A stretch of 64,000 nt of DNA from Fusibacillus kribbianus. Its GTDB lineage: Bacteria; Bacillota; Clostridia; Lachnospirales; Lachnospiraceae. The position numbers and the translations under genes were made by a program. The notes beneath the pieces were generated by a model that did no database searches, was not told the DNA's origin, and saw only the letters and a list, made by a program, of their open reading frames with translations. The stretch covers positions 1 to 64,000 of the forward strand of contig NZ_JASGBQ010000003.1 of the NCBI RefSeq assembly GCF_030053595.1. Reading direction: 5' to 3'. This document shows, piece by piece, positions 2,923-6,708 of this stretch. The stretch's first letter is position 1, and every line of letters begins with the position of its first letter.

Positions 2923-3171
2923 ATGTCCTCTGTCATTACCCTCGATCAGCTAAAGCCAGGTGAAGAGGCAATTCTCACAGGCATCTCCGACACCGTTTCC
3001 ACAGCCAGACGCTTAAAGGAGCTCGGTTTCCTGCCCGGCACCCCGCTGACCTGTGTACTCATAAAAAAAAGAGGGGAAACCTCTGCCTTCGATCTGCGGG
3101 GCACCATGATCGCACTGCGAAGAGAGGACTCTTCCCGGCTCTTCGCCCGCCGCAACGAAAGGAGGAGCTGA
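2923..3171 (+). CDS. feoA: FeoA-domain ferrous iron transport protein
   Basis: This 82-residue SH3-like FeoA protein is thought to help the FeoB ferrous-iron permease from the cytoplasmic side. Typical features are LDQLKPGEEAIL at the start, ARRLKELGFLPGT in the middle and FDLRGTMIALRREDS near the end. An AAAGGAGG site precedes the ATG. feoB starts three bases after its stop codon, so the two are co-transcribed. Confidence 0.93.
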   Translation: MSSVITLDQLKPGEEAILTGISDTVSTARRLKELGFLPGTPLTCVLIKKRGETSAFDLRGTMIALRREDSSRLFARRNERRS

Positions 3172-3174
3172 ACA

Positions 3175-4191
3175 ATGGCTGATCAAGTCAGCACCTCAAC
3201 TCCAAAACTCTGCCGGGCTGCCCTGGCCGGAAACCCCAATGTGGGAAAAAGCACCCTGTTCAATGCCCTGACGGGTCTTCACCAGCATGTGGGAAACTGG
3301 ACCGGCAAAACCGTATCCTGCGCCGTCGGACTGTGCCGTTACGAAGACACCGTTCTGGAGCTCACCGATCTTCCCGGCACCTACTCTCTTCAGAGTGATT
3401 CTCCCGAGGAGGAGGTCGCAAGGGAAGCCATCCTAAGCAGCTCCTTCCATGTGATCGTGGCGGTCTGTGATGCCACCAGTCTGGAGAGAAGCCTTGGCCT
3501 GGTTTTTCAGATCATGGCTCTGGCTCCCAGAGTGATCCTCTGTGTCAATCTCTGCGATGAAGCAAGAAAAAAAGGAATTGTCATTGATTTTCCGGAGCTT
3601 GAGAAGCTTCTGGGGATTCCTGTAATTCCTGTAAGTGCAGCCAGACAAGAGGGGCTTACCGGGCTCCTCTCCTGCATTGCCTCCTGCAAAAGCTCCTGCG
3701 GCAAAAGCCTGCAAACCTGCGAAGCCCCTCCGGAGCATTACCTGAAAAAAGCATCGGAAGTTTCCCGCCGGGTCACCGTCTATCACTGCCCGGAATATAG
3801 AAAAAGAGATCTCCGCATCGACCGGGCTGCAACAGGCCCGGTGACAGGAACTCTCCTTATGCTGATTCTGCTTTTCTTTTTATTCTGGCTTTCCATAAGC
3901 GGAGCCAATTACCCCAGCCAGCTGTTGAGCAGCGCCTCCTCCTGGCTGGAAACAAAGCTTCTTGCTCTGGCCAGCCTCGCCGGTATGCCGGACTGGCTTG
4001 AGGGGATTCTGATTTTTGGCGTTTACAAGGTTTCCGCCTGGGTGATCTCTGTGATGCTTCCGCCCATGGCCATCTTCTTTCCGCTTTTTACCCTGCTGGA
4101 GGATTTTGGTTATCTTCCCCGGGTAGCCTTCAACCTGGATCATCACTTTAAAAAATGCTCTGCCTGCGGAAAGCAGGCCCTGTGCATGTGA
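3175..4191 (+). pseudogene. feoB: FeoB N-terminal half, interrupted by an inserted element
   Basis: FeoB is a GTPase-coupled ferrous-iron permease. This fragment carries the G domain: G1 GNPNVGKST (about residues 19-27), G3 DLPGTYSL and G4 NLCD, then the first membrane segments and the FFPLFTLLEDFGYLPR gate region. It ends at GKQALCM followed by a stop codon. FeoB proteins normally continue with GKQAL(S/T)MCMGxGCN, and exactly this continues in frame at 5845-6708. The stop arises at the left junction of a serine-recombinase element. If the element were excised precisely, a 620-residue FeoB would result. As it stands, iron transport by this locus should be lost. Confidence 0.9.
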
Positions 4192-4825
4192 AAAGGGCGT
4201 ACTCTGCCGGCATTCCGGTGCAGATGCAGGTGGTATAGCCCTGAGGAAATTCCCGTTCGCAAAAGCACACTCCCGCTGCCGTCCAGTATCTCTCTCCATC
4301 TGCCGATAATGAAAACGGCCGTTCCGGTATCACAGAAAACTGTCCAAAACTGTCTCCGATCCCCTCTCCGGTATATTTCACATAACTTTCCTTGGCAGCC
4401 CAGACCATAAAAAACCGTTCATACCGGTTTTTGCAGACCCAGAGGGCCTCCGAAGGATGAAAGAACCGTTCTGCCATTCTGCCGTATCTGGCGGCGGCCG
4501 TTTCCTCCTCTTCCCCACGGTTTTTCGTGTGCTCCTGCAGATCCACTCCGATGGGAGTTTCCGAAAGGGCACAGAGCCACCAGTCACCGCTGTGGCTTAT
4601 GGAAAAATGCAGATCCGGCTGCGCCGGAAAATACGGCTTTCCATAGATGCCTCTGGCCATATGCCAGATATACTCCGGACTGTTCTCCCTCACAAGCCCT
4701 GACGCCTCGGCAGCCGCTCTCAGCCGTTCCTCCGGCCTTCTGCTGTCGTCTGCCGGAAACAGGAATATGCCAACTGACGGCCGGCTCATACCTCTGTAAC
4801 TCCTTTTTTCTTCATATATTATCAC
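4148..4825 (-). CDS. 4'-phosphopantetheinyl transferase, Sfp type
   Basis: This 225-residue enzyme moves phosphopantetheine from coenzyme A to a serine of a carrier protein (acyl or peptidyl). Family motifs are present: FSISHSGDWWLCAL, IGVDLQE with the metal-binding Asp, and FFMVWAAKESYVKYTGEG (the WxxKExxxK motif). The start could be the first ATG or MSRPSVG 12 codons later. It lies inside the element splitting feoB, transcribed away from the recombinase. The last 13 or so codons and the stop codon lie in the feoB sequence left of the junction, so its C-terminus is host-derived. No polyketide, peptide or carrier-protein gene is nearby, so its target is unknown. Confidence 0.88.
   Translation of the reverse strand: MIIYEEKRSYRGMSRPSVGIFLFPADDSRRPEERLRAAAEASGLVRENSPEYIWHMARGIYGKPYFPAQPDLHFSISHSGDWWLCALSETPIGVDLQEHTKNRGEEEETAAARYGRMAERFFHPSEALWVCKNRYERFFMVWAAKESYVKYTGEGIGDSFGQFSVIPERPFSLSADGERYWTAAGVCFCEREFPQGYTTCICTGMPAEYALFTCTGPAFRRQSIF
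4173..4190 (+). repeat. Left attachment-like direct repeat in feoB
   Basis: GCAGGCCCTGTGCATGTG is repeated at 5844-5861 as GCAGGCCCTCTCCATGTG, with 16 of 18 bases identical. Both copies are read in the FeoB frame (codons for QAL-x-M). The repeats are 1,671 bp apart, a multiple of three. Confidence 0.85.
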
Positions 4826-4936
4826 CTGTTTCTTACTTCTTATAAATTATACTTATTTTTGCTGATAAAGGCAATAACCATCCGTATTTACGACCTTTTT
4901 TCATTTCCATATTTTTCCATTGAAGGAGGTTTTCCC

Positions 4937-5944
4937 ATGTGTCACAATACACCCTCGGCAGGGATCTATATGAGACTCTCCAAAGACGACAAGGACCGGT
5001 CCGAAAGCTCCAGCATCACCAATCAGCGAAAGCTTCTTCTGGCCTATGCGAAAGCCCGGAAGCTTCCCGTCACAGAGGAATACGTGGACGACGGTTACAG
5101 CGGCACCAATTTCAACCGTCCCGCCTTCCGCCGCATGCTGGCGGATATCGAAAGCCGCAGGATCAATGTGATCCTGACAAAGGACCTGTCCCGGCTGGGC
5201 CGGGATTATATCATGACCGGTCAGTATACGGAAGTCTACTTTCCCTCCAGACACGTCCGTTTCATTGCCGTCAACGACGGCTTTGACTCCGCCTCCTCCG
5301 ACACGGACATCGGTCCATTCAAAAATGTGGTTAACGAGATGTATGCCAGGGATACCAGCCGCAAGATCCGCTCTGCCTTTCTGGTCCGCATGCAGGAGGG
5401 AAGCTACGTCGGGAGCCTGGCTCCTTTCGGTTACCGGAAAAGTCCGGAAGACCGGCACCGGCTGATTCCCGACCCTCCGGCTGCAGCCATCGTCCGGAGA
5501 ATCTTCGAAGCTGCCGGGGAAGGGAGCTCCCCTTCCCAAATCGCAGCTGCACTCAGCCGTCTGGCCCTTCCCACGCCTTCCGCATACCGCACCGGAAAAG
5601 AGAGGTCCGGTTCCTGGTCCGCCCGTACCGTCATCAAAATCCTGCGAAACCCTGTTTATCTCGGACATATGGTTCAGGGAAAATCCCGAAAGGTCTCCTT
5701 CAAATCCTCCCTTACCATAGCCAATCCTCCGGAAAGCTGGATCGTGGTGGAGCACACCCATGAGCCGCTGATCGATAAGGCTCTCTTTGAAAGAGCCGGA
5801 GAATTGCTGGATAGCCGCCGCTGCCGTTCCCTTCCCGATGGCGGCAGGCCCTCTCCATGTGTATGGGGCTCGGATGCAACGCCGTTGGAGTCACCGGCTG
5901 CCGGATTATCCATTCCCCACGGGAACGGCTCGTCGCCATTCTGA
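4937..5944 (+). CDS. Site-specific serine recombinase, shortened at the C-terminus
   Basis: The protein starts GIYMRLSKDD, with the catalytic serine at residue 15, and contains LTKDLSRLGRDYIMTG, the arginine-rich active-site motif of the resolvase domain. The large-serine-recombinase DNA-binding domain follows (APFGYRKS, then ILRNPVYLG). The ATG at 4937 follows GAAGGAGG, and the 26 codons upstream in the same frame are not needed. Element-coded sequence stops around residue 303, just after LFERAGELLDSRR. The last 32 or so residues are feoB sequence read in another frame. Related enzymes usually continue into a zinc ribbon and coiled coil, about 500 residues in all, so this one is either truncated or a short type. 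Confidence 0.88.
   Translation: MCHNTPSAGIYMRLSKDDKDRSESSSITNQRKLLLAYAKARKLPVTEEYVDDGYSGTNFNRPAFRRMLADIESRRINVILTKDLSRLGRDYIMTGQYTEVYFPSRHVRFIAVNDGFDSASSDTDIGPFKNVVNEMYARDTSRKIRSAFLVRMQEGSYVGSLAPFGYRKSPEDRHRLIPDPPAAAIVRRIFEAAGEGSSPSQIAAALSRLALPTPSAYRTGKERSGSWSARTVIKILRNPVYLGHMVQGKSRKVSFKSSLTIANPPESWIVVEHTHEPLIDKALFERAGELLDSRRCRSLPDGGRPSPCVWGSDATPLESPAAGLSIPHGNGSSPF
5844..5861 (+). repeat. Right attachment-like direct repeat in feoB
   Basis: GCAGGCCCTCTCCATGTG is the partner of 4173-4190. It reads RQALSM in the FeoB frame and runs directly into the native CMGLGCN motif. Confidence 0.85.
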
Positions 5945-6708
5945 CCAACACCTTTGTGCCCTGCAACGGCCGTTTCCCGACGCTTATCGCCCTGATCTCC
6001 ATGTTTTTCACCGGAGCGGCCGGCGGCCTTCTGGGCGGTATTGCCGGAGCTCTGATCCTGACTCTGATCATCGCCTTTGCCATTATCATAACTTTTGCCG
6101 CCTCCCGGCTCCTGTCAGCCACTGTGTTAAAAGGTAGAACTTCCTCCTTCATACTGGAAATGCCGCCGTACCGGAAGCCCCAGATCAAAAAGGTGCTGCT
6201 CCGCTCTGTTCTGGACCGCACTCTGTTTGTACTTGGCCGCGCCGTCATGATTGCCGTTCCTGCCGGTCTGGTCATCTGGCTCATTGCCAACGTCCGGATA
6301 GAAGGAATTTCCCTGCTTTCCTACGCTTCCGATTTCCTTGATCCCTTCGGCCGGCTGATGGGACTGGACGGTGTGATCCTTTTGGCCTTTATCCTGGGCT
6401 TTCCCGCCAATGAGATCGTCCTCCCCATTATCCTTATGAGTTATCTGTCCGCCGGGACTTTAGTGGAGGCGGGAAACCTGTCCTCCCTTCACAGCCTCCT
6501 GACCTCCCACGGCTGGACCTGGGCCACGGCAGTTTCCATGATTCTGTTTTCCCTGATGCACTGGCCCTGCTCCACCACCTGCCTGACCATAAAAAAGGAG
6601 ACCGGGAGCATCCGGTGGACGGCTGCCGCCGTCCTTCTGCCCACGGTCTTTGGTATTGTTGCCTGTATTGTATTTACTTCCGTCGTAAGGCTCCTTGGAG
6701 CAGCCTGA
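5845..6708 (+). pseudogene. feoB: FeoB C-terminal half, separated from its start
   Basis: This in-frame remainder of FeoB begins QALSMCMGLGCNAVGVTGCR and continues through NTFVPCNGRFPTL, several membrane segments, FPANEIVLPI and the last segments after HWPCSTTC. The first internal ATG is at 5857, but no ribosome binding site precedes it and the overlapping recombinase frame ends later, at 5944, so translation of this half alone is doubtful. Together with 3175-4173 it makes a complete FeoB of usual length. Confidence 0.9.

Follow-up and report, generated by a model that had tools for sequence, protein, structure and literature searches.

Can a transporter gene that lies in two pieces still be of use to its host? 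The question is raised by feoB of Fusibacillus kribbianus (G000), a gene of ferrous iron uptake that is interrupted after codon 338 by 1,671 bp of other DNA. We analyzed a stretch of 64,000 nucleotides, here called the window (assembly GCF_030053595.1, contig NZ_JASGBQ010000003.1, positions 1 to 64,000), which forms the start of a 198-kb contig (C23) in a genome of 2.9 Mb and 48 contigs. A sequence-only reading of the window had proposed that the insert is a site-specific element whose removal would rejoin feoB in frame, and that it could serve as an on/off switch for iron uptake. Our comparisons indicate that the insert is the remnant of a larger serine-recombinase cassette, that both feoB halves are under purifying selection while split, and that the codon at which they part is a hotspot for such elements. 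Precise excision of the element is plausible, and the proposal of a switch found little support.

A divided feoB whose flanks join in frame

The locus contains the following features, with positions given in the window.

3175..4188, + strand: feoB left half, GTPase and initial permease part, 338 codons (open reading frame, ORF, 3175-4191; Pfam FeoB_N, 8.9e-56)
5857..6708, + strand: feoB right half, remaining permease, 283 codons from the ATG at 5857 (Pfam Gate, 1.1e-14; FeoB_C, 1.5e-14)
4189..5859, no strand: inserted element, 1,671 bp from crossover TG to crossover TG, delimited by comparison with the intact feoB of one congener (G002) and the larger cassettes of two others (G001 and G007)
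4173..4191, + strand: attL region, with the feoB arm, core CATGTG and crossover TG (4187-4188), then the element
5844..5861, + strand: attR region, with the element arm and crossover TG (5858-5859), then feoB
4937..5944, + strand: short serine recombinase, 335 aa, catalytic and recombinase domains (Pfam Resolvase, 3.9e-20; Recombinase, 2.7e-23)
4148..4825, - strand: 4'-phosphopantetheinyl transferase (PPTase) ORF, 225 aa (Pfam ACPS, 5.1e-13; orthologues in the G001 and G007 cassettes)
2923..3171, + strand: feoA (Pfam FeoA, 5.9e-13)

Both feoB ORFs described by the sequence-only reading are present around the 1,671-bp segment, and the Pfam domain set of FeoB (FeoB_N GTPase, Gate and FeoB_C) is complete, divided between the left and right halves. 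The stop codon of the left half (TGA, 4189-4191) lies inside the attL region. The 18-bp direct repeats noted earlier (4173-4190 and 5844-5861) were found again, identical at 16 of 18 positions, with starts 1,671 bp apart and both read in the FeoB frame. As had been claimed, joining the flanks within the repeat gives a 620-residue FeoB: at each of the five offsets tested, the product was 1,863 nt long, in frame, and closed by a single terminal stop. In that the host gene would regain its frame (620 aa) on loss of the insert, the arrangement is that of gene-intervening elements of the skin and gin type. The right half had been placed at 5845; it does exist, but its first 13 bp belong to the element and feoB proper resumes at the TG at 5858-5859. 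The G000 genome carries one copy of this split type of FeoB.

The junctions as attachment sites

The gene breaks at or beside CCATGTG^CATGGG, and at the protein level the site reads KQAL-x-M^CMG, a conserved motif in this type of FeoB. Repeats of the observed quality are not rare by chance, with at least one pair at 16/18 in 4 of 20 first-order Markov sequences of 4 kb; the weight of the repeat lies in its position exactly at the cut. In other elements found at this codon (see below), the exact run through the core is 4 to 11 bp (G319, G553, G214, G210, G545, G409, G410, and L106), and in the G251 element the core does not fit the register of the others. Because these runs are shorter or different, the 18-bp similarity is for the most part particular to the genus of the window, and the repeat as a whole was rejected as the core of recombination. 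The element arm GCCCTCT is better read as half of a dyad-symmetric attP.

For 15 elements, we rebuilt attP with the TG of the ATG codon as its center and compared its dyad symmetry with that of shuffled sequences, all shuffle fractions being uncorrected for multiple tests. The rebuilt attP was symmetric around the TG at 10/18 positions for the window (fraction, 0.0055), at 13/18 for G001 (0.0000), and at 10/18 for G007 (0.0305). Altogether, 10 of the 15 elements had a dyad-symmetric attP with a fraction of at most 0.0305 (the window, G001, G007, G319, G553, G064, G330, G427, G409, and L106), and no symmetry with the same center was found in the other five (G251, G210, G214, G545, and G410), for some of which we would guess at a different attP center. 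The short common core and dyad-symmetric attP by which serine-recombinase attachment sites are recognized are both found in the window, and its junctions behave like such sites, with the crossover at the TG at 4187-4188/5858-5859.

A larger cassette in congeners

Genes for this type of FeoB were found in 4 of 11 genomes of the genus (E <= 1e-60), with fba and feoA upstream in all four (the window, G001, G007, and G002). The G002 gene is intact and encodes 626 residues, while those of G001 and G007 are interrupted at the window's codon by 14,730 and 14,518 bp, respectively. The two large cassettes resemble the window element at both ends, with a left-end PPTase ∼50% identical and a right-end recombinase 66 to 67% identical to the window's. 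Identical splitting in congeners, together with the attP symmetry at the TG crossover and the recombinase domains, upholds the earlier view of a site-specific serine-recombinase element.

A domain scan made on the G001 cassette found, besides the recombinase, the genes of a nonribosomal peptide synthetase (NRPS) cluster, the middle encoding a carrier protein, an AMP ligase, an HD-domain response regulator, a seven-transmembrane (7TM) histidine kinase, and the NRPS. The NRPS has 2,590 residues with two condensation, two adenylation, and two carrier domains and one terminal reductase domain, an architecture that we take to be of the dipeptide aldehyde or pyrazinone type. The open frames of the G007 cassette follow the G001 order. 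By this comparison, the window element is a deletion derivative of the NRPS cassette (∼14.5 kb) that lost the middle and kept both ends. The PPTase is retained in the window element though the NRPS cluster is lost, and the only PPTase match in G000 is that gene itself.

The history of the cassette can be followed in part through the host genes. In the FeoB tree, the window groups with G001 and G007 (86/83), G001 pairs with G007 (100/99), and G002 falls outside; quartets of fba and of the left and right feoB halves each pair G001 with G007 as well. Synonymous distances between G001 and G007 were 0.58 to 0.81 for fba and the feoB halves and, for the element genes, 1.09 (NRPS), 0.88 (kinase), 0.69 (regulator), 1.09 (ligase), 0.95 (recombinase), and 1.37 (PPTase).

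A tie between the NRPS cluster and feoB was considered and rejected, since the NRPS and kinase genes are adjacent without feoB halves in all six genomes fetched (L220 to L225). The cassette 7TM kinase occurs in 11 of 397 family genomes, and the six NRPS/kinase stretches had no match to four recombinase queries, G223, G157, and G357 lying outside this sample.

Purifying selection on the two halves of the split gene

Among the three split genomes, ratios of nonsynonymous to synonymous differences (pN/pS) were 0.29 to 0.35 for the left half, 0.20 to 0.32 for the right half, and 0.27 to 0.37 for the recombinase (Fisher p below 1e-24 each), with zero stops in the aligned stretches; these estimates are pairwise, near saturation, and drawn from three genomes. 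The PPTase gave 0.45 to 0.46. Pairs with the intact G002 gene gave 0.26 to 0.40, and there is therefore no visible relaxation in the split genomes.

In neutral simulations at d = 0.5, the mean numbers of stops were 8.1 (left half), 5.0 (right half), and 6.8 (recombinase), with minima of 2, 0, and 0 in 300 runs; at d = 0.3, the means were 5.8, 3.4, and 4.9 and all minima were 0. Stop-free runs thus occur neutrally, so that pN/pS says more than a lack of stops in a single gene. The feoB halves and the recombinase are under purifying selection while split. Decay of the halves, which would have spoken against the sequence-only reading, is not what is seen, with pN/pS at 0.20 to 0.35 and no stops across the three split congeners.

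A hotspot for differing elements

The sequence-only reading had suggested that feoB loci of relatives be surveyed for the same split site, and besides G001 and G007, other lineages are indeed split there, with G002 intact. In a survey of the family, 75 right-half matches were found in 73 of 397 genomes, and in at least eight of these genomes (G000, G007, G319, G064, G214, G251, G210, and G330) both halves are present with other DNA between them at the window's codon. Eight is a lower bound, since only some of the other matches were checked. In G188, there is an additional right half that is damaged, and no left half was found within 19 kb of it. A survey of the order, overlapping the family set, gave 139 matches in 138 of 373 genomes, from which 12 candidates at the window's site were fetched. 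Both halves were present in three (G545, G553, and G427), a recombinase adjoined the right half in three (G563, G576, and G636), no left half was found in 19 kb in G509, the contig edge was reached in G504, and the gene was contiguous in four (G660, G424, G457, and G661).

Among the best 80 of at least 587 named-genome relatives, feoB was contiguous in 73 and broken in 7. It is split by 7.8 kb in Intestinibacillus massiliensis (L090), by 8.5 kb in L106, and by 10.3 kb in L107 (G409). In L084 (G407) and L125 (G408), the halves lie on two contigs, the left of which departs from feoB at the core, and contigs L071 and L098 (Lacrimispora defluvii, G405) end at the core; the left half of L. defluvii was not found by protein or pattern search. 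In the IMG/VR database, the right half is encoded at six loci; at each of them the core is directly followed or preceded by other DNA, and no left half was found in the available DNA. A serine recombinase ends at the core in three of them (L188, L189, and L191), and the neighbors look phage-like by eye in the other three (L186, L187, and L190).

The cargo varies, from the NRPS cluster (G001, G007, and G319) to a type IV pilus-like cluster (G553) and a gene with an MGS-like domain (G214); in further elements it was seen at the level of ORFs. G553, from another family of the order, carries a 16.7-kb element in feoB (L211:2233-18974) with genes for PilM, a prepilin peptidase, T2SSF, and two T2SSE-type ATPases; its recombinase has 299 codons, is 53% identical to the window's, and likewise stops just after the recombinase domain. 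The G214 element (L057:16137-18967), at 1.7 kb, is similar in size to the window's.

A second break, about 30 to 40 codons downstream, is indicated by match start in ten of the genomes surveyed in the order (G330, G591, G652, G707, G516, G667, G694, G581, G647, and G569; the loci with this break are L064, L189, L226, L229, L230, L232, L234, and L235). Where the DNA was fetched, recombinases of a different lineage are located nearby, G694 being the exception with none found; both sites are broken in G330, G591, G516, and L189. As judged from these surveys, the feoB codon that is split in the window is a hotspot re-used by differing elements, some of them phage-like, in many genera.

A short recombinase

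The window recombinase matches PF00239 (3.9e-20) and PF07508 (2.7e-23, profile positions 3 to 102 of 102), and its final 28 codons cross into the feoB right half out of frame. At the other end, the last codons and stop of the PPTase lie antisense within the left half. No third gene was found in the element, the remaining ORFs overlapping the PPTase or the recombinase, and the 1.67 kb, with these two ORFs only, holds no phage structural or conjugation genes. The G000 genome has 13 stretches that match the recombinase, itself included, and a scan of IMG/VR gave 17 loci with 35 to 47% identity. A zinc ribbon and coiled-coil region was found in the recombinases of G319, G330, G251, and L188. Completion of the short protein elsewhere in the cassette was rejected: when two full-length C-terminal parts were used as queries against the elements of the window, G001, G007, and G553, they matched the feoB-encoded tail and otherwise gave short, weak matches (E of 0.016 and above).

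Excision or a permanent split

The account that we tentatively favor, and to which as a whole we would give a little under an even chance, is as follows. The feoB attachment site is used by several serine-recombinase lineages, and a cassette of serine recombinase, NRPS cluster, and PPTase would have integrated there in the ancestor of the three congeners by crossover at the TG. In the window lineage, an internal deletion then took the NRPS and its partner genes, leaving the PPTase, the recombinase, and both ends. Common ancestry of the cassette is inferred by parsimony, and the other steps follow from comparison. Both FeoB halves stayed in frame and constrained, and precise attL x attR excision in some cells, conditions, or sub-lineages may give the 620-residue FeoB. 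The short recombinase would be expected to act with another recombinase or a host factor, action alone being less expected. One assembly shows a possible sign of empty sites. In a metagenome-assembled genome (G406; L178 and L179), the left contig continues through the core into feoB, and the right one begins at the core; from that point the two overlap exactly over 24 bp, as would be expected if the sample contained both empty and filled sites.

Several observations weigh against this account. The overlap in G406 may reflect a strain mixture or chance. No PF13408 match (zinc ribbon) was found in the window recombinase, nor in that of G001, and in an alignment with those of G319, G330, and G064, the recombinases of all three congeners end after the recombinase domain. 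In the available part of one report (PMC3783163), the recombinase and zinc-ribbon domains jointly contact the attP half-site, and an integrase lacking the coiled coil showed no activity with any of the site pairs tried. In the accessible part of a second report, A118 integrase alone did not recombine attL x attR (PMC3556126). Because of these results, the short enzyme is not expected to be self-sufficient, and its conservation is unexplained. With no third gene in the element, no directionality factor is evident. The G000 assembly contains no empty site or circle, contig C23 running continuously through the integrated form, and two further FeoB-type frames, unsplit (819 and 806 codons; best stretches 47 and 39% identical), may carry iron uptake. 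In G214, the short recombinase and the feoB left half have frameshifts, and that element is either a decaying counterpart of the window's or an assembly error. The synonymous distances of the element, somewhat above those of the host genes, make co-descent likely and do not strictly prove it. A self-driven form of the on/off switch proposed by the sequence-only reading has against it a recombinase without the zinc-ribbon and coiled-coil region, no evident directionality factor, a 198-kb contig with the integrated form alone, and two other unsplit FeoB-type frames.

Constraint on both halves while split would also be expected if the gene were permanently divided and its GTPase and pore halves were made separately and assembled as a two-chain FeoB, with no need for excision. 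An ATG is available to the right half at 5857, and the recombinase gene, which reads into it from upstream, could supply transcription. However, no ribosome-binding sequence common to the window, G001, and G007 was seen by eye upstream of the right half, and the left half acquires unrelated tails (ORFs of 491 codons in G001 and 345 in G007), and we consider a two-chain protein unlikely. We find it just as unlikely that the locus is a locked-in relic, with a recombinase that no longer works and an inactive feoB, for whose halves, not yet decayed, paralogues substitute. A truncated recombinase, the two unsplit frames, the loss of the NRPS from the window copy, and the decay seen in G214 are what a relic would show, and because stop-free neutral runs exist for the right half and the recombinase, one gene in one lineage proves little. 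Against it, the halves and the recombinase are constrained and stop-free in three genomes with pairwise synonymous distances of ∼0.6 to 1.4, where the simulation at d = 0.5 expects several stops in each.

Recent, independent insertions in the window, G001, and G007, with the halves evolving mostly in the intact state, would account for the constraint in another way, and re-use of the site by many elements, the empty site in G002, and the somewhat greater divergence of the element genes are all in keeping with this. Nevertheless, the recombinase is cut short at one and the same point in all three, their elements agree in the PPTase and recombinase at the ends, and trees and distances are broadly congruent, making it the least probable of the explanations considered here. 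In the other direction, the ancestral cassette with occasional excision might be one case of a general arrangement, in which feoB would be a reversible docking site in Clostridia for cassettes with large and possibly host-useful cargo such as the NRPS or pilus-like cluster, a minimal domesticated recombinase of catalytic and recombinase domains only would work both ways, and a lineage would alternate between FeoB and cassette cells. We regard this extension as speculative and rather improbable.

Comparison with known systems

Gene-splitting elements are a known kind, and what is new here are the junctions, the hotspot, the deletion derivative, and the constraint on the split halves. In titles and abstract openings, the scope of our literature search (subscription papers, preprints, and supplements lying outside it), no description of feoB as a recombinase insertion site was found. 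The available part of PMC6907783 was word-searched on the same question. PMC10083194, in the part available, describes many distantly related serine integrases at one conserved coding site, as at feoB, and the accessible main text has no match to feoB itself.

The closest solved structure to the window's catalytic domain is that of TnpX (2mhc_A, 7.4e-31). TnpX differs from the window recombinase in its full length and in its choice of target, the window protein, unlike TnpX, ending after the recombinase domain. The G001 cassette has the domain set of a two-module NRPS with a terminal reductase but differs from that class in being carried in a recombinase cassette inside feoB, and the window copy lacks the NRPS. 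An NRPS cluster is thereby seen to travel as a simple recombinase cassette.

The nearest parallels, as described in the available text of the two reports, are gin in gerE of Bacillus cereus ATCC10987 (PMC5595907) and skin(Cd) in sigK of Clostridioides difficile (PMC5025042). Like the window element, gin is a non-phage recombinase element that splits a coding gene and has a short common core (9 bp); restoration by precise excision is shown there and proposed here. It differs in lying in a sporulation gene and using three recombinases and a helper, whereas the window has a transporter gene and one short recombinase. In skin(Cd), a serine-recombinase element likewise splits a gene that precise excision restores, but with a full recombinase, a directionality factor, and sporulation control, whereas the window lacks the zinc-ribbon region and any evident factor. 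The worked examples compared are thus sporulation genes, and here a transporter gene is split repeatedly at one codon by different recombinases, which supplies a defined attachment site and a set of recombinases that use feoB. The preserved halves suggest that the cut gene still matters, and halves constrained while split in one genus provide a clean test of whether a "disrupted" gene is really off.

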